The notes: generated by a model not told the origin, from the letters alone. DNA of 40,854 bases from a virus (IMGVR_UViG_3300050034_000084:1-40854); one strand, 5' to 3'; counted from the stretch's first letter, positions 11,177 to 35,241 are shown. Program-made: numbers and translations.

Positions 11177-13144
11177 CTATTGCAGGATTCTCACATTGTA
11201 AGTCCGGGCGGTAGGCGTCACTGCCACTGCTGTGCATAATTGCGGAGTGACCGTATTCGCAGCAGTCACTGCGCATTGTGGTTGGACGTTGGCTGGATTC
11301 CCTGCTGTACCAGAAATAACGCAGGCCATTGCAGTTGTTGCGCCGGTTACGGTCAAGGTCGTTTCATTCGTACAGCCAACGGCCAGGAGATCGCCTCCGA
11401 TGCTTGCCGTGGTTCCCGTGAGGGGAGTAGTTGCAGTTGGGAGCGTACTCAGCGTCCCATTGCTGCACATACGCCAATTGTTTGTGCTGCCTGCGATGGG
11501 GTCAATCCAGTAAGACCCTGAAGTACACGACGGATCGGAGGTAAGCAAGTTTCCTCCCACGAACTGTTGCGCGATTGACTGGTTAGTAGTCACGCTGTTC
11601 CAGCCTAGCCATGTATTTGCTCCTGTGCCCGGCAGAACCACATTAAACCCCAACGTGGTGGGCTGGATTTTCCAAAGATTTGAACCAGAGTCCGTCATAT
11701 CGATCTCAGGCACACTGGTGATACCAAAACTGGACGGTCCCAATGCGTGGAACCCACCGGCCAAATCAAACCACTGATAGTTTTTCGAGAAATTCCACCA
11801 GCTATTACGTGTCCCTCCGTCGGAGGACGTGTCCATACTCCCTGAGACAATATTCCCCATGAAGGCGTTATGATTGGTAAAGGCATTATAACTATAGCTC
11901 GCCTGCGATGAAGTGAAGCCGTAGTCCCAAATATTGAAGTTCACGAAACTGTTTGAATATGTGTTAGACCCGGCAACACCATTTACCATAAGTCCGGTCG
12001 CCGACTGCGGCCCCGACTGGCACGACGAATTGACAAAAACATTTCCTATAATATCTCCAGGATTAGACTGGTAATAGATGCAGTTTACTGCGTTCTTGAT
12101 GTTAACATCATTAACCCGAGTGTCATTGACGAAATAATTCGACCCTATCGCCCCTGTAGATGTGAGAAAAATCCCATTCTGAAAACCAACAGTGCGCCCG
12201 TGTTCAATATCCACATACGCCAGGGTATTCACCCCAGAAAGCGCTTTCAGTTGTATTGCTGTTCCAGTCGTAATACCACTTGTCACGGTACCGTTGATAA
12301 AGAGAAAGTTCGTTAGACTGCACGGTGCGCCATCTCCGCAAGTCCCTGGAAATTTTACGACATTACCTGCATAGTTTCCGAGAGCGCTGTTATCCACTGT
12401 AAGGCCCGTAATTGAACTGTCTGGCATGATGGCAAACATGTCTATAGACGGTGAAGCTGCCGTAAATGTCGTCGCAGGATCAAAAATTAGAGAAACCTTT
12501 TGCACGGTGGTTACTGTGGCCGCTATGGTGCGGCTAGTAGCACCATAACCACGCATGTCACACGTTCCACCAGTACCGACGGCTGCAATACATGCGGAAA
12601 TTTGCGCGTCCGCTGTTGTTCCAGCAAACATTTCGGCGTGTTGCACAAGGTTCGTAGCAAGAGCCGCGACGGTGCCAGAGAACGATGCGCTGGTGCCGGT
12701 GAGTGGGCCGGTTAGCGTGCCGCCTCCGAGAGATAGGTAGCTACCCGAAATCCCCACTTGCACATAGTCAGTTCCATTGTTCCAGACGGCCACCGTCGCG
12801 CCGTTGGCAATCGTGACGCCCAGGCCGCTGGGTCCGACGATCTGGACGCTCTGACCACCCGTCGTGGCGTTCTGGATAGTGAACGGGAAGTTGCCCAATG
12901 GAGCGCGTAGATTGCGCGTGGCTGTCAAGGTCACCGACGAAGTCAGCTTGATGTAAAAGGCGCTGGTTTCCCGCGCAGTCATGGTGTGATCCGCATCGGA
13001 TGCGAAGATCAGCGTTCCGTTGTTCACGCAGGGAAACCCCTGGCAGCCGATGTTTCCGGTAAGTGCGATCTGTGGCGCGGGAATCTGTGCGGCGCACGGA
13101 ATTGCCATCAAAAGAATCGCTGCGAGTTTGATTGCTGACTTCAT
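11177..13144 (-). CDS. exported beta-helix fibre/spike-like protein
   Basis: A 655-residue protein. Residues 1-19 form a Sec signal peptide ending CAA/Q. Residues 20-130 are a module shared with the neighbouring protein (84 of 111 residues identical by eye), with a Cys pair in GCQGFPC. Residues about 200-470 look like a right-handed beta helix: many short strands, Asn ladders and aromatic stacks (such as IIGNVFVNSSC). The C-terminus ends TARTYNVRILQ. The position at the end of the tail genes suggests receptor binding or polysaccharide recognition. The signal peptide and cysteines argue instead for export to the periplasm or surface. Both remain possible. Confidence 0.75.
   Translation of the reverse strand: MKSAIKLAAILLMAIPCAAQIPAPQIALTGNIGCQGFPCVNNGTLIFASDADHTMTARETSAFYIKLTSSVTLTATRNLRAPLGNFPFTIQNATTGGQSVQIVGPSGLGVTIANGATVAVWNNGTDYVQVGISGSYLSLGGGTLTGPLTGTSASFSGTVAALATNLVQHAEMFAGTTADAQISACIAAVGTGGTCDMRGYGATSRTIAATVTTVQKVSLIFDPATTFTAASPSIDMFAIMPDSSITGLTVDNSALGNYAGNVVKFPGTCGDGAPCSLTNFLFINGTVTSGITTGTAIQLKALSGVNTLAYVDIEHGRTVGFQNGIFLTSTGAIGSNYFVNDTRVNDVNIKNAVNCIYYQSNPGDIIGNVFVNSSCQSGPQSATGLMVNGVAGSNTYSNSFVNFNIWDYGFTSSQASYSYNAFTNHNAFMGNIVSGSMDTSSDGGTRNSWWNFSKNYQWFDLAGGFHALGPSSFGITSVPEIDMTDSGSNLWKIQPTTLGFNVVLPGTGANTWLGWNSVTTNQSIAQQFVGGNLLTSDPSCTSGSYWIDPIAGSTNNWRMCSNGTLSTLPTATTPLTGTTASIGGDLLAVGCTNETTLTVTGATTAMACVISGTAGNPANVQPQCAVTAANTVTPQLCTAVAVTPTARTYNVRILQ
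12755..13087 (-). repeat. copy A of duplicated N-terminal module
   Basis: Codes for residues 20-130 of the 655-residue protein. It is the counterpart of 13977-14309 and lies in direct orientation about 1.2 kb away. The protein copies share about 84 of 111 positions, so the DNA may be similar enough for recombination. Confidence 0.7.
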
Positions 13145-13160
13145 GTGATCTCCTACTTGA

Positions 13161-14366
13161 TTAGATTACGCACTGCCAAGTTGCCGAAATAGCAACATTT
13201 CCTGTTATTGTCAAACCTGATGATACGGCAATCTGCCAGTCGATTCTATCCCCCGCTACTACAGATGGATTGTGCGCCAAGTCTACGCAGTTGTTCCCCG
13301 TGCTTCCATTGCCCGTTATCGTGCATGTAAGAGACGATGATGCCCCATTCTGCCTAAGCGAAACTGTAACCGTAGTCAGATTTCCCTGATCTCCGCTGGT
13401 CAATAGGACTCTAAGATTATTGACGGTACAGTTAACCGGAGAGAGAGATTGTTCGGGCGCTTCTGTTGCTGAAAAGGCTGTTTCACCGCCCGAGAACGGG
13501 ATATATCCCGTCACACTCAGATCGTCATATCCGGTTGACAATATAGGAGACGCGGCAAGGAAAGTTGTAGATGTGTCGATGAACTGTTGGCTGCTATTGG
13601 TCCCCACAATCGAAGCGCTGGCAGGTATCGCCGCTCCGTTCACTTTCGCTACAGTAGGGTTTGGATATGTTCCGCTCAGGTCTCCTCCCGCTGATCCGCC
13701 TGGCGCTCCTCCACTGCACCCCGTAGTGGTAAATGCTGCCGCTGTACCATTTGCGCAGATGGGCAAAGTGCTGGCTGGAATCGCAGCATCCGAGATGGTT
13801 GACGCGCCCAATCCGGACCCGCCAATAATAGCGCCGCCGTTGAGATTAGCGCCGCCAGTGACGCTAAGTGTGCCGCTGGAATTGAGGCTTGCAGATGTTG
13901 TCAGGGTCGGAAGACTCAACGCTCCGGCCATCGTCTGCGGCGTGGTGAGGCTCGTGGATACATATCCGGTGGACGTTACCTGCACATAGTTCGATCCATC
14001 ATTCCATACAGAGACGGTCATACCGTTGGGAATTGTGACGCCAGTGCCGCTAGAACCGATGATCTGTATGCTCTGGCCGCCCGTCGTGGCGTTCTCGATT
14101 GTGAAGGGAAAGCGGCCGGTGGGTGCAACCAGGTTCCGCGTCGCAGTCAGGCTCACGCTGCTGGTCACCTTGATGTCGAACGCGGATGTTTCCGTGACCG
14201 TCATCGCATGATTTGCGTCAGAAGCGAAAACCAGCGTTCCGGTATTCACGCAAGGGAATCCCTGGCAGCCGATGTTTCCGCTGAGGTTGATCTGTGGGAC
14301 CTGAATCTGCGCAGAGGCGCCTACGGGCATAAGTAGCGCGAAGAGCAGCCATCGTAGAATTCTCAT
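13161..14366 (-). CDS. exported fibre-like protein, paralogue of its neighbour
   Basis: A 401-residue protein with a Sec signal peptide (residues 1-19, ASA/Q). Residues 20-130 repeat the module of the 655-residue protein. The middle (about 150-260) is low-complexity Ser/Thr/Gly with short strand repeats, typical of fibre shafts. The C-terminal 140 residues are beta-rich and contain several Cys (CTVNN, CTITGN, NNCVDL, TWQC), perhaps paired. A surface-binding role is likely. As with the neighbour, export and virion assembly are hard to reconcile. The gene is 1-2 nt from the next. Confidence 0.72.
   Translation of the reverse strand: MRILRWLLFALLMPVGASAQIQVPQINLSGNIGCQGFPCVNTGTLVFASDANHAMTVTETSAFDIKVTSSVSLTATRNLVAPTGRFPFTIENATTGGQSIQIIGSSGTGVTIPNGMTVSVWNDGSNYVQVTSTGYVSTSLTTPQTMAGALSLPTLTTSASLNSSGTLSVTGGANLNGGAIIGGSGLGASTISDAAIPASTLPICANGTAAAFTTTGCSGGAPGGSAGGDLSGTYPNPTVAKVNGAAIPASASIVGTNSSQQFIDTSTTFLAASPILSTGYDDLSVTGYIPFSGGETAFSATEAPEQSLSPVNCTVNNLRVLLTSGDQGNLTTVTVSLRQNGASSSLTCTITGNGSTGNNCVDLAHNPSVVAGDRIDWQIAVSSGLTITGNVAISATWQCVI
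13977..14309 (-). repeat. copy B of duplicated N-terminal module
   Basis: Codes for residues 20-130 of the 401-residue protein and matches 12755-13087. Both copies start at the mature N-terminus that follows the signal peptide. Gene duplication with later divergence of the C-terminal domains is the simplest origin. Confidence 0.7.
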
Positions 14367-14367
14367 G

Positions 14368-15465
14368 TTAGCTCGCGATCCGAGGCTGGAACGTGCCGGT
14401 GAGAACGTTCGTGCTCTGATAGAGGTACATGGTGATCGTCACGCCAAATTCGTTGACAAACGTCACCGTTGTTGGCGTATTGAAGGCGAACGGGAATCCG
14501 GTCGTTGCATCGGTGAACGTGTGCGATCCGCCTGTCAAAAGCAGGTAGATCGTCTGGCTTGAAGGAGAATAGGGGCCGAACGTCTGCCCAACTGTCTCTG
14601 CGCCCAGGCCAGCGCTCGGCAGCGCATCGGAGGTTGACAGCACCGCTGTGGTGCCACTGGCTGTGACTGTCGACGTGGCGCCAGCAGTGCCCAGGCCGCC
14701 GAAGATGCGCGGGTTCCATGTGTAGGTCTGATTGGCGGTTTGCGTAGAAGACCCCGTAGCGGTGAGCTGCACCGTAGTTGTCGTGATCGTGGTGTGATAG
14801 AAACTGCCAACGATTGTGCCGCTGGTGAATGGCGAGGCCAGCACAAGCGGCGAGCTTATGGAGTCTGTATTCGTGATGCTTGCGCTGGTCGGCGTTCCAG
14901 AGTAGGTTGCGCTACAGGTCGGATTCGTGACCGTCTGCCCCAGTTCAAGCGCCCCGCTGCACCCCGTGAACGAAGTGATGGCGAACGTAGTGGACAGCGA
15001 AAGCGTGACCGCGCCTGTGCAGCTTCCGCCTGCCAGTGGCGTACAGGTCAGCCCGGCAGCCGGCGTTATGGAGGACACCCCACCCGCACCGCTTCCGCCG
15101 CCGATCGTGAAGTAGTAGTTGTAGCTGCGCTGCGAGGATGAGATGGTCGCCATGTACTGCCCGCTGGTGAACCATCCGCCCATGTTGCCATAGGAGTCAG
15201 CGGACGAAACGCAAGCCCCGGATCCGTTCAGCACAACCTGCGAGCCGGTCGGGCACGCAGTGGTTGACGTTGCCGAGTTGTAGGTGGTTGCCAGTGAGCC
15301 AGACGGCTCATTGTAGAACGACACCGAAGCACCCGGCACAGCGTAGACAGGCAGCAGGTTTCCGCCCTGCGCCTGCGTGGTGTAGACGGGAAGGTCCCAG
15401 CGCACGTTCTGCGCCATGAGCGGCGATGCAAGTACGAACAGAAGTAGCCAGCGAAACGGTTTCAT
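14368..15465 (-). CDS. exported beta-sandwich protein of the tail region
   Basis: A 365-residue protein. Residues 1-18 form a Sec signal peptide (LMA/Q). Residues about 20-115 form a first domain (NLLPVYAVPGASVSFYNEPS, with paired Cys in TTACP and GACVSS). A Gly/Ser hinge (IGGGSGAGG) follows, then a Ser/Thr-rich, Ig-like beta region to the end. Cysteines come in pairs throughout (LTCTPLAGGSC, FTGCSG, PTCSA), which suits an oxidising compartment. It overlaps the internal virion protein gene by 4 nt. It may be a fibre adaptor or an exported surface factor. Confidence 0.7.
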   Translation of the reverse strand: MKPFRWLLLFVLASPLMAQNVRWDLPVYTTQAQGGNLLPVYAVPGASVSFYNEPSGSLATTYNSATSTTACPTGSQVVLNGSGACVSSADSYGNMGGWFTSGQYMATISSSQRSYNYYFTIGGGSGAGGVSSITPAAGLTCTPLAGGSCTGAVTLSLSTTFAITSFTGCSGALELGQTVTNPTCSATYSGTPTSASITNTDSISSPLVLASPFTSGTIVGSFYHTTITTTTVQLTATGSSTQTANQTYTWNPRIFGGLGTAGATSTVTASGTTAVLSTSDALPSAGLGAETVGQTFGPYSPSSQTIYLLLTGGSHTFTDATTGFPFAFNTPTTVTFVNEFGVTITMYLYQSTNVLTGTFQPRIAS

Positions 15466-17198
15466 TGGTTGTCCTTTCGAGGGGGCAATGTTTGTGTAGT
15501 CGTGAGCGGGTAAATCGGAGCCGTCATCAAGTTGCGCGCCGTTCCATTATTCAAAAGCGAACCGAGCGCGGAAGGGAAAGCCGATACCCCACGCAGAAGC
15601 GGCTTGACGGCACCCCCGCCCATCGGCATCGGCGTTTCCTCAGGGTTCTGGAATCGATCTACAGCGGAACGAACAAGCGCATTGGGGCTGTCAACATCGC
15701 CAAGAAGCCTATTTCCAACATAGCGCATGACGGTACTTTTAGGGCGGAATACATCCACCCCCGCGATGTTGGTCGGGTCTGTTGTGGTAGCCATGCGGTT
15801 TGCCTGCCGAGTAGCAATATCACCTAAATCATGGAAGGCGCCATAGCGGTTCTGACCGGCGCGAATGTCCTCTTCGGGGACACCACTTAGATCGGATAGA
15901 TTTCCATATTCGACACCACGCAGAGCGTTTCCAGACGCTTCAAGGCGACGCACTTCCGGGTTAGCCCGCGCAGTGTATTTATTACCCTCCGCTTTCTGAT
16001 AAAAAGGCTGTAACTTTTGATTCGTCTCGCGGCGCAAGGCGTCAACATCCCGCATCGTTGTTGGCTCTTCTCCGGGGATTAGCTTTTCAGTTGTGATCGG
16101 ATCCCCGCGCTGATCTAGGATCGGACTTGTCTGTGTTACGGTCGTAGGTTCTGTGTCGGGAACGTATCGCGAAGCAGTTCCTGCTGTGCGCGATTCAATC
16201 CCTGGATGCTCTAAGAGATCAAGCCTGTTAGTGCTCCCTATTTGCGCCTTCGCGACTGGAGTCATATCAACAGGGGCATCGCGGAAAGGAGCACGCAGCC
16301 GCGCAAAGTCCTTGAGTTGTCCACGCCCCAATCTCCCCGCCTGAGACGCAACTTCGGCGACTCCGCTCGGATTGGTCGCAGCGATAGGCGGAAACGTTTC
16401 GTTGAAATTTCCCATAAAGTCTGGACGTTCCGACTGTGTGGGCTTCAGCGCGTCCCCAAGGGCCTGCATCGGCGTTCCCGGCTTGAGTTCGCGGGTGAAC
16501 GCGAGTCGCTGCGCTTCGGGTGTCGCGGATAAAAACCTTCCAGCCTTTCCCGCTCCTTCCATCGCGGCCCCTCCTGCTCTTAGGGCTGGATTCGCATACG
16601 GATGGCCAAGCAGAGTACCAGCGGCCAATTGAGGAATGAGCGTTTCGGCGGACTCGGCGGGATTGGTTGCAATTTGGTGAGCCATGTCGCCATAGATAGA
16701 CTTGCTCAGGTCAAAGGTGGACTTCCCTGGATTGTTAGGATCATACCCATAGGAGTCCATCAACACCCCAAGGGGAGACCCGCGCAAAATTGCCTCTCCG
16801 GTATCCTCCGGGTGCATGACGATGGACCCTAGAGCGTGGGGGATGCTTTTGAGTACATTCCCCGCGCCGGTCTCGAGGTTTCCGAGAATCCCCTGATCGA
16901 GGCTGTGCGGCTTTGGGCCAAGAGCCGTATCGAAATCGTTCTGCGCTTTAGTAGCCGTGTTGCTAATCGCTTGCATGAGGGTAGGATTTTCGTGCGGCTG
17001 TGCTGTGGATGTGCTGTAATTTGGATCGGCCGGGATGAAATCTGCGTCTGTTCCTGTGACTTGGCCGCCGTTCGAAGGCGCGGAAACTCCCTGATCTCCG
17101 ATCAGCATGGCGCGGTGATCCGCCGTTGTGCCCGTGTGGACCCACTCTCCCCCAGCGGGAATGAAATCAGGCGCGGGTTGTGCTTTCAGCGGCGGCAT
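15462..17198 (-). CDS. internal virion/ejection-type protein
   Basis: A 578-residue protein without recognisable enzymatic motifs. Residues 1-75 are disordered and rich in Pro/Gly. Residues about 80-230 are helical with hydrophobic or Gly-Ala stretches (IPQLAAGTLLGHPYANPALR), as in ejection proteins that cross or contact membranes. The rest is charged and helical. In podoviruses several such proteins lie between nozzle and fibre genes; they are ejected with the DNA to form a channel across the envelope. The gene is contiguous with the 527-residue protein gene. Confidence 0.55.
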   Translation of the reverse strand: MPPLKAQPAPDFIPAGGEWVHTGTTADHRAMLIGDQGVSAPSNGGQVTGTDADFIPADPNYSTSTAQPHENPTLMQAISNTATKAQNDFDTALGPKPHSLDQGILGNLETGAGNVLKSIPHALGSIVMHPEDTGEAILRGSPLGVLMDSYGYDPNNPGKSTFDLSKSIYGDMAHQIATNPAESAETLIPQLAAGTLLGHPYANPALRAGGAAMEGAGKAGRFLSATPEAQRLAFTRELKPGTPMQALGDALKPTQSERPDFMGNFNETFPPIAATNPSGVAEVASQAGRLGRGQLKDFARLRAPFRDAPVDMTPVAKAQIGSTNRLDLLEHPGIESRTAGTASRYVPDTEPTTVTQTSPILDQRGDPITTEKLIPGEEPTTMRDVDALRRETNQKLQPFYQKAEGNKYTARANPEVRRLEASGNALRGVEYGNLSDLSGVPEEDIRAGQNRYGAFHDLGDIATRQANRMATTTDPTNIAGVDVFRPKSTVMRYVGNRLLGDVDSPNALVRSAVDRFQNPEETPMPMGGGAVKPLLRGVSAFPSALGSLLNNGTARNLMTAPIYPLTTTQTLPPRKDNQ

Positions 17199-18782
17199 CT
17201 ATTTGTACCATCCTGTTCCTTTGGGGCCTTTTGCGTCGAAATGGTAACCCGCTGGAACATTGGGCGGCCGCGGCGGCGCTGCCTGTTGCTGGTTTCCTAC
17301 GGTATGTCCCTGATCTTGAACCTTCTGAAGCCATGGAATCATCGTTTGAATGATTCCCTTTAGGTTGGCCGGCGTCTGGTGCGGGGCGTTGATGGCGTGG
17401 TCAAACTCTTCGCGTAAATTCTCTGGCAAACGTCCTTGCGCATGAGCCAGAGCGACCGCGCTCGACATCATAAGCAGGTCTGAACGCAATTCTGCCATTT
17501 GCTGATTCGGAGCACCCACTTTGCCCTGCATGAACTCGTTCCATCGGCCCGCGACAGGTCCCATTTGAGAAGCTGCTGCATCGATTCTGGCTATGACTTC
17601 TGGGGCCATCTCGATGACTGTCTGTGCACGGCCAGCCGCAGTGCGCTGCGTCATCGTGGGCGTGTTCACGGAATTCAGTCCAGCAGCGGTCTGTGCGCCG
17701 GGCGCAATATTGCTCCCGGGCCGTACAACCGTCGCTGTCGAGCCGCCGTTACCGTTCGGCACCATCATCATGATTGGCGCAATTTGGGGAGGCCGCTGCG
17801 TATCGAGCGAGTATTGGCGCTCGGCTTGCGCGATCGTTGCGCCCTTGTGTAGCTTCTGGTACTCATCGATATACTGCTGCTCGGGAGAATCTGGCTTGGG
17901 CTGCTTCATCGGTTGAATGCCCGTCACATTGCCAAGCCGCGTCTGCCCGGAACGCTCCTCATATTCAACTGGCTCGCCGTTCGGACCAACCATCCCCGTG
18001 AGTGCTTTCCAAACTTCAGGCGGATTCTCGCGGACGTTGGTTTCCGACTCAAGATTCGTTTTCTGGGCACCCTGCAATCCGCGTGTGCTTTCCGCGTTCG
18101 GCGCAATCTCTGGCGTCTCCACAGCGGTATGCTGCGCGGTGGCGTTCTCGCTGGCGGTCTGCGCCTGCTTCTGCGCGTTGGCTTCATCCTGCGCGACCTG
18201 GCCGCGCTCATGTCCGAGAGTCACCGCCTGGTGCGCATATGTGCCCGGCACATTTGACAGCGCCATTCGCGCAATAGGCGATGCACTTTCGAGAGCGGTA
18301 TCGCCAATCATCGCAGGAACTTGAGCGCCCCATCCGAGAATCTTGCCAAGCAGTGGATGATTCGGCATCGCTCCTTCGATTCTGTGCGCAATGCTGTTGA
18401 TGCCCGCACCTTCGTCAAGCGAACGCGACAGCTCTGTCTGGTCGCCGAGCAGCGTTCCCTGGTGGACTTGCTGCCCTGTCGTCATCATCTCCTGACCGCG
18501 CTTAGGCCCGGTGACCAACTGCGGTGCCGCGCTCGGTATTGCGGGCGTAGAAATCGATGGAGTTGTGCTGCCCATTGAGATTGGCGCGGGCTCAGGGCCG
18601 GCGTCCGGGTGCGGTAAGAGCATGCCGTGAGGAATAACTGAGGGTGCTTGTGCGGCAGTAGTTGCGGTAGGAGTAGGCTGCGAATTACCGCCCATTTTCG
18701 CCACAACAGCCTGCGCATCGGGAGACAAAGATTGCATGTGCCCCTGAATCTCGCTCAATACCGGATTGAAGTTGAAAGCCAT
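17199..18782 (-). CDS. internal virion/ejection-type protein
   Basis: A 527-residue protein. The start MAFNFNPVLSEIQGHM at 18782 is chosen because it overlaps the upstream stop and skips an unlikely 24-residue extension. The first third is Pro/Thr/Gln-rich; residues about 180-300 are helical and Gln/Glu/Ala-rich; the C-terminal third has LRSDLLMMSSAVALAHAQGR, a helix pattern like P22-type ejection proteins. No motif indicates enzyme activity. It ends with TAG directly before the next gene. Confidence 0.55.
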   Translation of the reverse strand: MAFNFNPVLSEIQGHMQSLSPDAQAVVAKMGGNSQPTPTATTAAQAPSVIPHGMLLPHPDAGPEPAPISMGSTTPSISTPAIPSAAPQLVTGPKRGQEMMTTGQQVHQGTLLGDQTELSRSLDEGAGINSIAHRIEGAMPNHPLLGKILGWGAQVPAMIGDTALESASPIARMALSNVPGTYAHQAVTLGHERGQVAQDEANAQKQAQTASENATAQHTAVETPEIAPNAESTRGLQGAQKTNLESETNVRENPPEVWKALTGMVGPNGEPVEYEERSGQTRLGNVTGIQPMKQPKPDSPEQQYIDEYQKLHKGATIAQAERQYSLDTQRPPQIAPIMMMVPNGNGGSTATVVRPGSNIAPGAQTAAGLNSVNTPTMTQRTAAGRAQTVIEMAPEVIARIDAAASQMGPVAGRWNEFMQGKVGAPNQQMAELRSDLLMMSSAVALAHAQGRLPENLREEFDHAINAPHQTPANLKGIIQTMIPWLQKVQDQGHTVGNQQQAAPPRPPNVPAGYHFDAKGPKGTGWYK

Positions 18783-19339
18783 TATTGATTCCCCAGGTAC
18801 GCCGATGCTGCTTGGCCGCCAGACTGAACTCCTTGCAAAAGCAGTTTCTGCCAAAAATTCCCTACATCGCCAGCGTTCTTGAGCGCATTATTTGAGGAAT
18901 TCAAGCCGCCCACCGCCGTTCCTTCGTTGGTTCCATAGAGGCTTTGTAAACCCTTCAGTCCTTCTCCCTGCTGCTGCTGTTTGACCTGCTGATTTTCGTT
19001 CTGCGTGGTGAGATTCGCCTTGGATAGATTCTGGCTTGCCGATTCGCCGCTCTTCGCGATAGCCGAGTCTGCGGTGCCCGCATTCTTCGTGCGCGCCGCA
19101 AGCAAGGAACCTTGCCCGACAGCGCCCGCGTTCGCTCCACCGGCGGTCTGCATGTTGGATGTCTGGATTTTGGCCATGTCCGCGGGGTTGATGCCCTGCG
19201 GATTGGTCGCCATTGTACTCAGCGTGGGGCTGAGGGTGCCGTAGAGGGATGCGGCATTGTTCTGGCCGGTTTTGGAGATTCCCTGCCCTGTGGTCGAATT
19301 CGCTAAATCCTGCGATTTGATTCCTGATCCGCCCGCCAT
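18782..19339 (-). CDS. small internal virion protein
   Basis: A 185-residue protein rich in Gly, Ser, Gln and Asn, with few hydrophobic core segments except near the C-terminus (WQKLLLQGVQSGGQAASAYL). This composition is common for the smallest ejection proteins of P22-like podoviruses. It overlaps the GNAT-like gene by 37 nt and the following gene by one base. The role is inferred from composition and order. Confidence 0.5.
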   Translation of the reverse strand: MAGGSGIKSQDLANSTTGQGISKTGQNNAASLYGTLSPTLSTMATNPQGINPADMAKIQTSNMQTAGGANAGAVGQGSLLAARTKNAGTADSAIAKSGESASQNLSKANLTTQNENQQVKQQQQGEGLKGLQSLYGTNEGTAVGGLNSSNNALKNAGDVGNFWQKLLLQGVQSGGQAASAYLGNQ

Positions 19340-19698
19340 TTATCACCCTCCGCAAGAAAGATTGCGCTCTGGCAACCCTCCTTGTACCCCAAAGATACCA
19401 GCCTCCGCAGGAAGCCTCGTGCGATCTTCGGTGTGACGAGAGCGATGGTCCGCTTGTGCCCCGTTTCGTTCATCCACGCTAATAGTTCCACGTGGAACGT
19501 CCGTAACCAGTGCATTTTCGCTGCCGGATGGCCTTTTGCCAGCGCTAAAACCACTTCAGGAACCATTCTGATACCAGCGTGCCCTACAATCCTGCCATCC
19601 TCAACCAAAACGCGCTCATAAAAAAGTTTGGGTACGTCACCATCAGTGTACAACGCGCGCAATTCGGCGTCGTCGGAATCTTGCCGAGCGCGGATCAT
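19303..19698 (-). CDS. GNAT-like acetyltransferase
   Basis: A 131-residue protein with a GNAT-like profile: a strand-helix start (MIRARQDSDDAELRALY), a middle strand LVEDGRIVGHAG, which matches the usual 'xxGxIVGxxG' of GNATs, and a late helix-strand FLRRLVSLGYKEG, the family's acceptor-side 'xxlGFke'. The acetyl-CoA pyrophosphate loop (Q/RxxGxG/A) is not clear, so catalytic activity is uncertain. Small GNAT-like proteins occur within podoviral structural operons. It may modify a virion or host protein, or be a structural remnant. Confidence 0.55.
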   Translation of the reverse strand: MIRARQDSDDAELRALYTDGDVPKLFYERVLVEDGRIVGHAGIRMVPEVVLALAKGHPAAKMHWLRTFHVELLAWMNETGHKRTIALVTPKIARGFLRRLVSLGYKEGCQSAIFLAEGDKWRADQESNRRI

Positions 19699-20276
19699 GT
19701 CGTAGGCGGCTTTCCGGTTGCGCTGCGGAATGGAACTGGCCCAGGTCCGCTCGGATGCTGCCCCGCTGTGCCCGTTCCTGTTCCCTCAGATGGAAGCCAA
19801 AGGGGACCCGGATGCGAACCGCCGCCCCGGACCGCAATCGGTGTTGCGCCGCCATGAATCACCGGCTGCGTCGGACCACTCCCTGCGTAGGACTTGTAGA
19901 CCTGCACATAGCGCGTCTGGTTGCCGATGAATTCCGTGTGGTTGCGCAGTTCTGTTCCCGATGCCTGCGTGTGGATGGCGTTCGTGAAGTTGGGGTTATC
20001 GGCGTGCGCTACCCAATACTTGACGCCGCGCGAAAGCGGACCCTGGTCGTTGATGGCAACGTGCATGTAGCCGCCCTGCGCGGTGACCTTGACGCCCATC
20101 TGCCCGTCAGGCGGATGCGGTTCGCCGATGGGGTTGCTATTCGTCTGCGCAAGGTGGTTCGTAACTGCGTTATTGATGTCCTGCAGGGCCTCGTACAGTT
20201 TTGCGCCGTAGCTGCTTCCGGTCGTGGCCGGGTCAGCGTTGCGCAGGTAGTCGAGGTTTCTTATCTTCAATGTCAT
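19695..20276 (-). CDS. tail-associated structural protein
   Basis: A 193-residue protein. Residues 1-100 include a helical start (AKLYEALQDINNAVTNHLAQ) and a beta region (QMGVKVTAQGGYMHVAIND, GVKYWVAHADNPNF) reminiscent of fibronectin-like or collar domains. The last 60 residues are Gly/Pro-rich and probably disordered. It overlaps the large nozzle gene by 4 nt. A structural role in the tail follows from position. Confidence 0.5.
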   Translation of the reverse strand: MTLKIRNLDYLRNADPATTGSSYGAKLYEALQDINNAVTNHLAQTNSNPIGEPHPPDGQMGVKVTAQGGYMHVAINDQGPLSRGVKYWVAHADNPNFTNAIHTQASGTELRNHTEFIGNQTRYVQVYKSYAGSGPTQPVIHGGATPIAVRGGGSHPGPLWLPSEGTGTGTAGQHPSGPGPVPFRSATGKPPTT

Positions 20277-23200
20277 TGCGCCGCGCCCCTAGTCTTCAAA
20301 CGAGTCGGGACAATCAAGCATGTCACCATCTGGATATTGTAGGCGTTGTCCGTCTCGCCCGGCAGCGGTTGCGCTGAGAATTTCAGAAAGAATCGGCTGC
20401 CCCGCGCAATGATCATGCCTCCCATTCCCCACTGGAGGTCGATATTCGGCTGGCTCACTGTGCGCTCGCAGGACAGCGGCCAGATGTTCGCCGGATTATT
20501 TGGCGCGACCTGGACCAGCATCGTTCCCGCCGGCCAAGTGACCGTTGCCAGAACGCCGAAGAATCCCTTTTGATGGCTGCCAACCTGTAATTGCTGCTCT
20601 GCGCCGCGGTTCACAAAGCCATAGGTGTAGTAGTAGCTGTTCACCTGCCCATAATCGTCGTCGGTGTACTTGTTCGGGTTGAGCGTGTAGACATTCCCAA
20701 ATCCGCCCGCGCCCGGCGTGGCACCGTTTCCACCGCCCAGCACCAGCGAGAGCGTGCCGGCCTCGCGGTACATCAGCGCAGCGCCGTTCATGCTCATGTT
20801 CCATAGCGACCACTTGCGGGAGTTGTCTGTTGCGATCAGCTTTCCGCTGAAGGATACGCGGAATGGCGGCGACCCGGCGATGGACTGCGCTGAATCAAGC
20901 TGCCGATAGGACATAAACAGGATGTGCGATGGCGCGGTAGATGTTCCACGTGGAACGCCGAAATACAGCGCCCGCTCCACCGGGTCATTCACGCTCCAGA
21001 CGGTCAGCGCAGCCGCGGGGTTGATCTGCGCCCAGTCCGGCTGAATCTCCTGCGAAATCTTGTCGGGATATGAGCCGCCGAAGATCCGCGCACCCGAGAG
21101 GCTGGCCCAGGCCATCCACTCCTCGCCACCCGAGGCCGCGGTATCATCCGCCTGTGATTTTGTAAGCGAGAACGCCGATAATGCTCCACAGTTCGCTCCT
21201 ACCTCGTTTACCTGCCATCCGCTGGGTTCGGTCGTTCCGTTGTCGGTGGTCTCGTGCAGCCGCCCGCTGGGTTCCTGCGTGAGCATGTAGAACGTCTCGC
21301 GCATCACACCGAAATCCATCACCTTGCGCGTGTCCGTCACCGGGCCGAACTTGCCCGATTCGCCGTCAATGCCCTCTGCGTTGTTGCCGTAGGAGCCGAA
21401 AAGAACGCCGTCCAGGTAGGGCGTCTGCGAGTAGATCACGTTGATTTCATCCACCAGCACGCTTTGGTTGGCAACTGTCGAGGCCGCGTAGATGGTCAGC
21501 AGCATGTCAGTCGGGATGGCTTCCGGCGTTACTACGGTGAAATCTGTCTCGACGAATCCACCGCGTGCGCTCATCTGTGCGCCATCGATCGATGCGACCG
21601 AAATGAATCCTGTGAGTGCGCTCGAAAACTTGGCGTAAAAGGTCAGATTCGCATCAAGCGCGCTCGGCTGGAGCCAAACCCGCAGCGTGTAAGGCGTGTT
21701 TCCGGTCAGAATCGGGTTGCCGTAAGCGTCAAGGTAGGCCGACTGCGAAAGAACTCCGGACGGCCCCGCCCCGGCAGCGGCATTGATCAGCCACGCGGAA
21801 GAAGGGGGCAGTGCCGGGTTGCCGGCTAGGGTGCCGGGGTTCGTGCTGGCAGTCCAGCCGGAGGGCACAAGTGGCGCCGAAGGCATATACCCGCCATCGA
21901 ATCCCAGGTTGAGGAACTTCTGGATGCGGTTGCGCTGCCCGTAAGTGATCAGCCTAGTCGCATACTGCCCAAAGCCCAGCGCGCCGTCCAGCACAATCTG
22001 CGCGATCAGGTCGTTGCCGGGGATTGAGGTCGCCAGGCCTGCGAACAGCGAATTATCCGAGAAATCGAGCAAAACCGAGGTCGTCGTGTTGTCGTTGATC
22101 TGCGTGGCTGTCGAGACAACTTGCCCGTTGACCTGCGCGGGGATGGGTAGGTAGAAGAAGTACGCACCGTCTGCACCGGTGAGCTCCAGAATGCGCGCAA
22201 CCACATTTGAGGGGCCGATGGGGATATTGTCTACCTGCGGATACTGGCCACCGTTGGCGATGAACTTGACGTAGGAGCTCGACTTCAGCACCGCGCCCTG
22301 CCGCGTCAGGAACGTGCAGCGCAGAAGGTGGAAGCCTGGAGCCATCTGGCCATAAGGCGTGACCGTGCCAATCGCTGTCGTGGAACCATTCGGCCCATAC
22401 TGCTGGTATTGGAACTGTGTGGGGGAAATCACCGCCGTAACGTAAAAAGTCCCTTCCCACGCAAAACCCACGGTGCCCGTTGTCCAGGTTCCATCGGAAT
22501 AGTTGATCGGCACATAGAACGTGGTCGGACTCGGCGCAGATTCGACTTGGAAATAGCTCGGCGTTGGGGAATCTGGGACTGGCCACGCGATCACGATACT
22601 GCCGGTGTTGGACGTGGCATTGATCACGTTGGGAGTCGTCGCGGTGATCGGCGTCTGCAGATAGGTGATCTGGTTCGGCGAGGGCACTGTCTCTACTGCG
22701 AACGTCCCATCGAAGCTGAAGGTGGTCCCGCTGGTGGCCGTGGCCACAGAGCCAATCTGCACGACACTGCCGGGAATCAGGCGGTGCGAGGTATTCGTGG
22801 TGATTGTCGTCCGACCGGAGGTCCACTGCGCTGCAGAGATGTCTGCCAGCGTGCCCGGCTCTACGCCAACAATCGAGACATACTCTTCTGGAGCCAGACC
22901 GTGCGGTTGCGTAGTGGTAACCAGCGCCAGGCCCGGCGCGGTTTCGTTGTCGATCACGATGGATTGGATGATCGCCACGGTTCCCGATCCGGACAGCGTG
23001 TAGTAAATCGTCATCTGAAACGGGATGCCGATGAACACGCGGCTGGTATCGGTATTGGCTGCCATCGCAAAACCGAAGCTGGGATCGTTGACGATGGCCG
23101 GCGTGAGTGCGGCGCCCCATGAATCTCCCGCGCTGCCGTAGGGCTGGATCGTCTTTGTTGTGGTGAAATTGGTCCCCGGATCCTTCGCGGTTCCCACTTG

Positions 23201-24091
23201 GCCGCCGCTATTCCATAGCGCAACCTGCGACAGCGTTGCACCAGAGGCTGATTGCGAGACAAGTTCCGCGCTGAGTTCCACGCCCAAAATGATTGCGGTG
23301 GAGGGGATCGCAAACCCGAAATTGTGAAAGGTTAGGTCCGACAGCGCAGACACGCCCGGGTTAAAGTTCGAGCGCCACTGATTTGTGGCTGCCCCCCACT
23401 TGCTGGTCGCAGTCTGGCCGGAAGGCCACGCCGATGTGGCCGATTGGTTGACTGTTGTCGAGTTTGAGTCCGGAACATTGGAAATCTGCGCTTGATAGCC
23501 GATTTGCAGCGGCGGATTGGGCGCAGTCGCCAAGTTCGCGGTGACAATGTTCCCGTTGCGCGTGAGCGTGTTCGGCGCGGCCACCATCTGCGCGGGAGTT
23601 GGCGCAAGAGAGGTCACCGTAGGGCATGCGCCGGGTCCGTCCTGCGTCACGCGGTCAAGATAGGTTCCATCCCACTGAAGCGGCACAGTCGCGCCGTGCA
23701 GGGCGTCAGAGATACCGATGAACTCGCGTCCAAACATCGTCGCGGACTTGGCATAGCTCCCAGGCGGCCCCGTAAAGAGCAGATTGACGACGCCGGGCGC
23801 GTTGATGGGGTCTTCCCAGTAAAGCTCGCCATTCGAGAACAGATACAGGTTCTTAATCGCGCCGGTGGGCGTGACAAAGGATTTCTGATAGGTGCAAGTG
23901 GTGTTTGGCGGGGCGTTCGTTAGGACGCGCTGAAGGTTGGGGCGCGTCATCACCGCGCCTGGGCGATAGGTATTGTCCTGCTCGTCAGGCGAGACGCCAT
24001 CGGGAATGTCGGTGGCCGCCATCTCAGTAACGCGGCCACCAAAATTCTCAAGAGGGATTTCAATTGCACCTTTAGTTGCGAATCCAGGCAT
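20273..24091 (-). CDS. large tail nozzle/tubular-type protein
   Basis: A 1272-residue protein, the largest in the window. The start (LENFGGRVTEMAATDIPDGV, then SPDEQDNTYRPGAVMTRPNL) resembles the opening of T7 gp12-like tubular and nozzle proteins, in which a 'D..SP.....N.....G....RPG' motif begins a beta-propeller-like ring. The body is almost all beta with many Tyr, Gly and Thr and has a few carbohydrate-module-like inserts (such as PYTLRVWLQPSALDANLTFY). The protein would form the distal tail tube. No long tape-measure gene is present, which supports a short-tailed virion. Confidence 0.65.
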   Translation of the reverse strand: MPGFATKGAIEIPLENFGGRVTEMAATDIPDGVSPDEQDNTYRPGAVMTRPNLQRVLTNAPPNTTCTYQKSFVTPTGAIKNLYLFSNGELYWEDPINAPGVVNLLFTGPPGSYAKSATMFGREFIGISDALHGATVPLQWDGTYLDRVTQDGPGACPTVTSLAPTPAQMVAAPNTLTRNGNIVTANLATAPNPPLQIGYQAQISNVPDSNSTTVNQSATSAWPSGQTATSKWGAATNQWRSNFNPGVSALSDLTFHNFGFAIPSTAIILGVELSAELVSQSASGATLSQVALWNSGGQVGTAKDPGTNFTTTKTIQPYGSAGDSWGAALTPAIVNDPSFGFAMAANTDTSRVFIGIPFQMTIYYTLSGSGTVAIIQSIVIDNETAPGLALVTTTQPHGLAPEEYVSIVGVEPGTLADISAAQWTSGRTTITTNTSHRLIPGSVVQIGSVATATSGTTFSFDGTFAVETVPSPNQITYLQTPITATTPNVINATSNTGSIVIAWPVPDSPTPSYFQVESAPSPTTFYVPINYSDGTWTTGTVGFAWEGTFYVTAVISPTQFQYQQYGPNGSTTAIGTVTPYGQMAPGFHLLRCTFLTRQGAVLKSSSYVKFIANGGQYPQVDNIPIGPSNVVARILELTGADGAYFFYLPIPAQVNGQVVSTATQINDNTTTSVLLDFSDNSLFAGLATSIPGNDLIAQIVLDGALGFGQYATRLITYGQRNRIQKFLNLGFDGGYMPSAPLVPSGWTASTNPGTLAGNPALPPSSAWLINAAAGAGPSGVLSQSAYLDAYGNPILTGNTPYTLRVWLQPSALDANLTFYAKFSSALTGFISVASIDGAQMSARGGFVETDFTVVTPEAIPTDMLLTIYAASTVANQSVLVDEINVIYSQTPYLDGVLFGSYGNNAEGIDGESGKFGPVTDTRKVMDFGVMRETFYMLTQEPSGRLHETTDNGTTEPSGWQVNEVGANCGALSAFSLTKSQADDTAASGGEEWMAWASLSGARIFGGSYPDKISQEIQPDWAQINPAAALTVWSVNDPVERALYFGVPRGTSTAPSHILFMSYRQLDSAQSIAGSPPFRVSFSGKLIATDNSRKWSLWNMSMNGAALMYREAGTLSLVLGGGNGATPGAGGFGNVYTLNPNKYTDDDYGQVNSYYYTYGFVNRGAEQQLQVGSHQKGFFGVLATVTWPAGTMLVQVAPNNPANIWPLSCERTVSQPNIDLQWGMGGMIIARGSRFFLKFSAQPLPGETDNAYNIQMVTCLIVPTRLKTRGAAQ

Positions 24092-34397: not shown

Positions 34398-34585
34398 TTA
34401 CGTTTCCTCCGCGCCGAAATCATGCTACCCTTGCGCTCCGGCAGTCCAGTCTCTTTGGTGTCCGCGAACTCGTGCAGTTGCTTGTGCGACATCGCAAGGA
34501 GGCCCCGGTTCGCTGGGTTGAGCTTGCCGGGGTCGTGTTCCGCGATGGCCATGGCCTCGCGTTGCTTCTTGGAGACGGCTGGCAT
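34394..34585 (-). CDS. DUF3008-like small protein
   Basis: A 63-residue basic protein starting MPAVSKKQREAMAIAEHDP, with LLAMSHKQLHEFADTKETGL and a basic end (SARRKRK). The opening 'MPAVSKKQRxAM' and 'FAxTKExGLPER' are features of the DUF3008-type small phage proteins. Function unknown. Confidence 0.65.
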   Translation of the reverse strand: MPAVSKKQREAMAIAEHDPGKLNPANRGLLAMSHKQLHEFADTKETGLPERKGSMISARRKRK

Positions 34586-35241
34586 TAGTAGATGACGTGA
34601 GTCGTGGAAGCCAGGACGCTGCCGACCGCTGCCGTATACGACAGTGCGCCGACACCGCCGCCCCAGTCGAGCACCGTGGCCGTGGCCGACGCCGACTTGA
34701 TGGCCACGATAAACGCATTCGAGGCTGTGTGGCCGGACGCGATGCCTGCCATATTGAGCAGTTGAGGGCTAATGGCGACCAGTCCGTATCCCCACTTGTT
34801 GGTGACGTAAATCTGCGCCTCGGCGATACCGTAGGTTCCGCTGGTGACCCTGTCACCTGTACCATGCGGATAAGCAAAGGTAGCCGTGAACGAGCAGGAC
34901 TGGTATACCTGCGGGGTCCGGCAGCTCACCGCGCTAGGCGTCACCGTCTCCGCATTCGCCCCAGTGCCTACAGTAACCGGCGCAGCGGTGGAAAGCGGAG
35001 TAATCAGGGTGCCATCGCTGGTAGCAACGGTTCCGAAGGCGACGGTGAAGGTGGCGACGCCGGCGCCGTTCGTGACCAGCGTCGAATCAATCTGCAAGGG
35101 CGGCACAAGCGAGTTGAGGCCGTAGGCGAACGAGTACGCATTGGCAACGCCGCCAAACACGGCGGGGTTTTGGGCAAACGCTGGCACGCCGACGAATCCG
35201 GCTACAGCGATCAGGGAAACGAGCGAGCGAAACAGCTTCAT
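34585..35241 (-). CDS. exported protein with Sec signal peptide
   Basis: A 218-residue protein. The ATG at 35241 (MKLFRSLVSL) has GGAG 7 nt upstream and is preferred over the ATG two codons earlier. Residues 1-23 form a Sec signal peptide ending AFA/Q. The mature part is beta-rich with Thr, Val and Ala and has a Cys pair (SCRTPQVYQSC), consistent with a disulphide. It lies among small genes between the terminase and portal genes. No family was recognised. A role in the host envelope, such as exclusion or surface display, is more natural than a place in the head. Confidence 0.65.
   Translation of the reverse strand: MKLFRSLVSLIAVAGFVGVPAFAQNPAVFGGVANAYSFAYGLNSLVPPLQIDSTLVTNGAGVATFTVAFGTVATSDGTLITPLSTAAPVTVGTGANAETVTPSAVSCRTPQVYQSCSFTATFAYPHGTGDRVTSGTYGIAEAQIYVTNKWGYGLVAISPQLLNMAGIASGHTASNAFIVAIKSASATATVLDWGGGVGALSYTAAVGSVLASTTHVIY

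Follow-up and report, generated by a model that had tools for sequence, protein, structure and literature searches.

Results

Three fiber-like genes with signal peptides in the spike slot

The window analyzed here is the whole 40,854-nucleotide viral contig IMGVR_UViG_3300050034_000084:1-40854 from an uncultured soil phage, in which three adjacent genes encode fiber-like proteins of 365, 401 and 655 residues. An initial annotation, made from the sequence alone, had placed them directly after the tail genes and noted a secretory N-terminus on each. The three open reading frames (ORFs) were recovered at the same positions, all on the minus strand (Table 1), in a slot following the nozzle and ejection-protein genes. 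They are transcribed in the order 365, 401 and 655 as a single tight operon behind a 578-residue gene: the start of the 365-residue gene overlaps the stop of the latter by 4 nt, the 365- and 401-residue genes are 1 nt apart, and AGGAG is present upstream of the 655-residue gene (13154-13150).

The signal-peptide calls were made with an explicit n/h/c rule, i.e., a basic n-region, an uncharged hydrophobic core and small residues at positions -3/-1. All three proteins carried a Sec signal peptide with these properties (with Leu as the variant at -3) and Gln at +1, in agreement with the annotation. Tat and lipoprotein readings were rejected, since neither a twin-Arg motif nor a lipobox Cys at +1 was present in any of the three, leaving Sec and signal peptidase I as the probable pathway. 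Applied to 400 kb of Terriglobus, the rule flagged 53 of 276 genes with Gln as the most common +1 residue (19/53), so that the +1 Gln of the phage proteins agrees with the habit of a likely host. Among the non-fiber late ORFs of related phages, only 4 of 308 passed.

The mature N-terminal domains without signal peptides, A1 from the 365-residue protein and A2 common to the 401- and 655-residue proteins, served as queries in scans of IMG/VR and GTDB genomes, followed by hidden Markov model searches of the recovered loci. The non-redundant A1 proteins recovered in this way numbered 24 and the A2 hits 19, the latter including a broken ORF in contig L035. A signal-peptide-like N-terminus was present at, or a few residues before, the domain in every relative with a readable start, and the +1 residue was mostly Gln. 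The mean identity of the 18 residues preceding the domain was 0.18 for A1 and 0.17 for A2, against 0.29 and 0.55, respectively, for the first 30 mature residues. The signal regions have thus diverged while keeping their signal character, indicating that selection maintains the property rather than the sequence. The recurrence across A1 and A2 relatives from related contigs argues against a chance occurrence, and retention of the signal region in all relatives led us to reject a real start further downstream.

For an unbiased survey, contigs were picked by the nozzle gene instead of the spikes and read past both ejection-type genes (n = 27, window included). According to a tally made by reading the output, 26 of the 27 had at least one signal-peptide fiber-like gene in the spike slot, with L056 as the exception; L007, which is also contig L040, and L064 were counted only with a longer N-terminus. 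The first idea, that the first spike gene is always exported, was dropped, since a non-exported anchor precedes the exported spike in L023, L027, L029, L031, L035 and the G274 prophage. A motif like ERDWPRSTWRGL directly preceded the signal core in longer N-termini at L007:9854-10007, L064:14415-14580, L065:11432-11585 and L059:18285-18435, and in L007 and L064 an additional hydrophobic stretch was located ahead of it. A row of six signal-peptide proteins (162-1848 residues) was found at L036:2757-13487 in a 58-kb contig, where no nozzle gene was found in the part examined; the exported-fiber habit may therefore extend to another phage type.

Cysteines and the oxidizing compartment

The paired cysteines had been taken in the initial annotation as a sign of an oxidizing compartment, and this was borne out by Cys parity, Cys covariation and a comparison of exported and non-exported copies of the same domain. 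Cys residues number 6, 8 and 14 in the mature 365-, 401- and 655-residue proteins, respectively, each an even count, and their density is 1.7-2.2 per 100 residues versus 0-0.7 in the nozzle, major capsid (MCP) and ejection-type proteins of the window. Mature A1 domains had 2, 4 or 6 Cys, i.e., an even number in 24 of 24. In their alignment, the first Cys pair was gone as a pair in three sequences, while in eleven others the first Cys of this pair had moved by two columns and its partner was kept. The two main Cys columns of the A2 alignment were either jointly filled or jointly empty in all 19 sequences, with new pairs appearing elsewhere. Even Cys numbers were found in 22 of 25 complete signal-peptide proteins (23 with the evident cleavage site of L051) versus 89 of 200 other late proteins, and the Cys densities of these two groups were 2.07 and 0.72 per 100 residues, respectively. 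A preference for even Cys numbers in exported proteins has been described for E. coli and Burkholderia (PMC7678975). Both VKOR and signal peptidase I are encoded in three genomes of the host phylum.

The comparison of copies concerned CT, the well-conserved C-terminal 215 residues of the 365-residue protein, which was found in 16 distinct contigs behind variable N-termini: a signal peptide with A1, a signal peptide with other short domains, or a different N-domain without a signal peptide. The Cys pair FTGC...NPxCSATY was present in 10 of 11 exported CT copies and in none of the 5 non-exported ones (Fisher p = 0.0014, uncorrected for kinship), and the non-exported CT proteins had 0-1 Cys in their whole length. 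Because the Cys pair follows the signal peptide on one and the same domain, export of the spike proteins, as judged from their sequences, is regarded as close to certain.

In all 16 contigs with CT, the next gene encoded an A2 protein, irrespective of CT export; in five of them the anchor was non-exported and the A2 protein exported. In L025 the CT gene has been replaced, yet its last codons (LTGTFRPKIAS-stop) remain ahead of the A2 gene (L025:7915-7948), which is a recombination scar at the adaptor-spike junction. The constant pairing and this remnant suggest that adaptor and spike bind each other. None of the non-exported anchors was recognized by Pfam and one was by PHROGs: the N-domain of the L031 protein matched phrog_1640 and phrog_5510, which are tail and tail-fiber proteins.

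Relation to phage tail spikes

Tail-spike identity of the three proteins is supported by homology or fold. The 401- and 655-residue proteins have the A2 domain in common (75% identical). Residues 173-394 of the latter match the phrog_3783 tail spike (E 5e-4), making it the only one of the three with a spike-body match, while the former gave weak matches to phrog_12796 (tail fiber) and phrog_28023. The AlphaFold2 (AF2) model of A1 had a predicted local distance difference test score (pLDDT) of about 95 for residues 31-100, and its best Foldseek match was 7eeq_A from the Pam1 tail machine (probability 0.99, E 0.03), together with the Pan3 tail complex (probability 0.98-0.99, E above 0.001). According to a 2026 paper, the region of 7eeq matched by A1 is the N-domain through which the spike binds the nozzle (PMC13243795). 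The A2 model (pLDDT about 90, residues 21-110) was closest to 24qj, the tailspike of Acinetobacter phage Solidus (probability 1.0, E 0.008). Structure prediction, which had been proposed along with the annotation, gave good models for the N-domains only, both with folds near phage tail parts. No Pfam match was found for the three proteins, the A1 set giving one stray SdrD_B hit, and sequence searches of the PDB returned no relatives.

Phage type and host

The homologies support well the assignment of the phage to podoviruses and of its host to the phylum Acidobacteriota. TerL resembles podovirus terminases, the 1272-residue protein matches tail tubular proteins, an 818-residue protein has a weak match to the P22 portal and the MCP matches phrog_14242. 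The gene order is like that of the podovirus MW202473 (terminase, portal, capsid, tail tubular, stabilization protein, acetyltransferase, coil protein, internal proteins, tail fiber), whose fiber in the spike slot has no signal peptide. An A1 protein was found in Terriglobus albidus, and the GC content of the window (0.575) is close to that of the Terriglobus stretch (0.570). In a genome of the same phylum, a contig carries a virion module of this kind adjoining metabolic genes. Furthermore, a prophage-like region of a 6.4-Mb acidobacterial chromosome (L141:14692-20676) has three consecutive signal-peptide fiber genes after ejection-like genes, the mature proteins having 8, 2 and 24 Cys. One of its genes (L141:14692-15636) encodes a signal peptide followed by a domain that is 52% identical to the tail spike of PBR31 and 61% to a protein of Rhodoferax phage P26218, values which hold for this prophage homologue and not for the window's own proteins. 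In the PBR31 and P26218 proteins the domain starts at residue 9-17 and there is no signal peptide; the N-domain of the Xanthomonas phage PBR31 spike is taken as virion-binding (PMC10975493).

The end of a Terriglobus albidus contig (L038) carries two large signal-peptide fiber-like genes, of 1138 and 1115 residues, on opposite strands, which are possibly domesticated spikes.

Table 1. Spike cassette of the window and further features of the contig

Feature	Position (strand)	Sequence or basis
365-residue predicted exported anchor/adaptor, first in the spike cassette	14368..15465 (-)	ORF; 6 Cys in the mature form
Sec signal peptide of the 365-residue protein	15412..15465 (-)	MKPFRWLLLFVLASPLMA, cut, then QNVRWD (LMA/Q)
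Mature N-terminal domain A1, putative virion-docking type	15082..15411 (-)	QNVRWD...; AF2, Foldseek, even Cys
C-terminal CT domain (putative adaptor)	14371..15015 (-)	Cys pair FTGC...NPTCSATY
401-residue predicted exported fiber	13161..14366 (-)	ORF; A2 N-domain; fiber-type linkers such as GGDLSGTYPNPTV
Sec signal peptide of the 401-residue protein	14310..14366 (-)	MRILRWLLFALLMPVGASA, cut, then QIQVPQ (ASA/Q)
A2 N-domain of the 401-residue protein	13971..14309 (-)	QIQVPQINLSGNIGCQGFPC...; covarying Cys pair
655-residue predicted exported tail-spike-like protein	11177..13144 (-)	ORF; phrog_3783 match
Sec signal peptide of the 655-residue protein	13088..13144 (-)	MKSAIKLAAILLMAIPCAA, cut, then QIPAPQ (CAA/Q)
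A2 N-domain of the 655-residue protein	12752..13087 (-)	75% identity to A2 of the 401-residue protein
Tail-spike-like central region of the 655-residue protein	11963..12628 (-)	phrog_3783 match
578-residue ejection/internal-protein-like gene	15462..17198 (-)	Between nozzle and spikes; no signal peptide; 0 Cys
527-residue ejection/internal-protein-like gene	17199..18782 (-)	0 Cys; homologues occupy this position in related contigs
1272-residue tail nozzle/tail-tubular-like protein	20273..24091 (-)	tblastn to tail tubular proteins of two podovirus records
218-residue fourth predicted exported protein	34585..35241 (-)	MKLFRSLVSLIAVAGFVGVPAFA, then Q; 2 Cys; between terminase and portal

The 578-residue protein had no family match in Pfam or PHROGs. 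The fourth protein has a counterpart in the equivalent position of a related contig (L043:566-1264), similar by eye and with its own signal peptide, and aligned to the domain adjoining CT in L036 with 39% identity over 51 residues (E 0.002), which is suggestive only. A 131-residue protein without a Pfam match (window 19303-19698, minus strand) occupies the slot that in MW202473 is held by the annotated acetyltransferase, between the nozzle and the coil protein. A protein of 930-970 residues without a signal peptide, of a beta-propeller type by eye, is encoded between the nozzle and the next gene at L060:12714-15497 and L061:13315-16227. A scan for promoters and terminators showed no excess of the former and a slight excess of terminator-like sites, and was not used.

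Discussion

A spike apparatus that may be completed outside the cytoplasm

We consider it slightly more probable than not that the three genes encode an exported, disulfide-bonded spike apparatus which docks on virions at or after lysis. The 365-residue protein would be the anchor or adaptor, and the 401- and 655-residue proteins the distal fibers or spikes with a common docking N-domain. The proteins would carry a host-type Sec signal peptide, leave the cytoplasm late in infection, be cut ahead of Gln by the host signal peptidase I and form disulfide bonds on folding in the periplasm, where they would wait while heads and tails are built in the cytoplasm. At or after lysis, the 365-residue protein would dock on the nozzle through A1, and the other two proteins would dock on this adaptor through their A2 domains, producing an infectious particle. 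The timing of the docking step is what we infer from the compartments: with cytoplasmic head and tail assembly, exported spikes would meet the particles only once the envelope breaks, and in the five contigs combining a cytoplasmic anchor with an exported spike the partners would meet only after the membrane break. Tailspikes of P22 have been added to heads in vitro, which makes docking after release physically plausible.

Four uses had been offered for these proteins in the initial annotation, of which fibers assembled in a new way are favored here on account of the nozzle-docking-type N-domain, the spike slot, the adaptor and spike gene pairs and the tail-fiber N-domain on a non-exported homologue, while decoys, superinfection exclusion and secreted polysaccharide-binding proteins are less favored. 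Whether this amounts to a tailed-phage lineage that finishes its virions outside the cytoplasm, with Sec-exported spikes, disulfide-bonded in the periplasm, snapping onto spike-less particles at lysis, appears to us evenly balanced; the same balance applies to its further part, that post-lysis docking is the rule within this acidobacterial phage group and permits spike disulfides barred in cytoplasmic assembly.

Several points weigh against this explanation. The Foldseek E-values of both A1 and A2 are weak, and good AF2 models were obtained for the N-domains only. Neither the exported proteins nor the portal had a relative among 50,697 annotated phages, and there is no cultivated relative. The Cys parity and Fisher tests ignore the relatedness of the sequences, and even Cys numbers failed as a general mark of export in the host phylum (16 of 45 exported Terriglobus proteins); parity alone is therefore not decisive, and reliance is placed on covariation and on the comparison of exported with non-exported proteins. 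Post-lysis addition of exported spikes is not known for any tailed phage, and no report of exported tail spikes or fibers in tailed phages was found in the open-licence full-text literature. Finally, no recognized virion genes were present within the 19 kb examined around the L038 fiber genes of Terriglobus albidus, indicating that such proteins may function virion-free.

The last point leads to the main rival, in which the proteins are exported but never enter the virion, acting as depolymerases, decoys or receptor blockers that are freed at lysis or secreted and clear exopolysaccharide or protect the progeny, their spike folds being retained by descent. Signal peptides and disulfides require no virion, the five contigs with a non-exported anchor and an exported A2 protein show that two compartments are usable together, and a bacterial precedent exists: the glycanase WceF of Pantoea combines a tailspike fold with a Tat signal peptide (PMC7949094). 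We nevertheless regard this possibility as rather unlikely, though to be taken seriously, since the exported genes are the sole spike candidates seen in the spike slot of most contigs, their N-domains resemble virion-docking domains and the fixed CT and A2 pair suggests contact between the products.

The remaining explanations appear much less probable. Retention of the spikes on the infected cell surface or in the periplasm, where they would block superinfection or mask receptors, fits the location, and in other phages the known exclusion proteins are often located in the envelope; however, the genes belong to a late structural operon and are large (300-2000 residues), modular and several per phage, and the signals are of the cleavable type with a conserved cleavage motif and no lipobox or retained anchor, which makes this a very improbable role. 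Slightly harder still to accept is a non-secretory N-terminus, either an uncleaved segment anchoring or plugging the fiber in the virion or a product of wrongly placed starts with the true ones downstream. The odd N-termini with an extra hydrophobic stretch in L007 and L064 would suit it, but the A-x-A/G and Gln cleavage motif, the basic n-region and the drifting sequence with constant physico-chemistry speak for secretion, the paired Cys track the signal peptide, and the starts show either coupling to an upstream gene or a ribosome-binding site. Least credible to us is that Sec-exported spikes join the virion before lysis by another route, or that virions cross the envelope before lysis: this would reconcile export with a virion role, but tailed phages mature in the cytoplasm and no gene for such a route was recognized.

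Comparison with known systems and significance

In the post-nozzle/ejection slot, the beta-rich N-terminal domain of putative docking type and the putative spike-like body of the 655-residue protein, the window resembles podovirus spikes (Pam1 7eeq, PBR31, P26218 and the P22/Sf6 type), while its proteins differ from the Pam1, PBR31 and P26218 type in having a Sec signal peptide and paired Cys. Podovirus spikes are made and assembled in the cytoplasm, whereas the periplasm is indicated here by the signal peptides and Cys pairs. We therefore claim a likeness in fold, gene order and likely role, and none in the route of assembly. Branched receptor-binding systems consisting of an adaptor and spikes are represented by the G7C and CBA120 type. 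The arrangement, in which a conserved anchor comes first and at least one spike with a common N-terminal domain comes after it, is shared with these; in contrast to them, all parts in the window are predicted to be exported, and their contact is suggested by gene linkage alone. WceF of Pantoea stewartii (PMC7949094) is likewise a tailspike-like fold made for export, but it is bacterial, has a Tat signal and lies outside a phage late operon. Signal-peptide endolysins (fOg44 lysin) and the T4 antiholin RI likewise rely on Sec and signal peptidase of the host but, unlike the putative spikes of the window, are lysis or lysis-control proteins and not receptor-binding ones; the Sec-dependent phage proteins met in the literature were of these two kinds only.

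Completion of a tailed-phage virion is assumed to precede lysis and to take place in the reducing cytoplasm. If the proposed explanation is true, Sec-routed spikes would break this rule and would explain disulfide-hardened spikes in phages of soil bacteria. Searches for receptor-binding proteins would also change, since a signal peptide is normally grounds to discard a fiber call. The Acidobacteriota are abundant soil bacteria, and the open-licence literature on their phages is almost nil. The finding also raises the testable question of whether a spike added after lysis renders the particle infectious.

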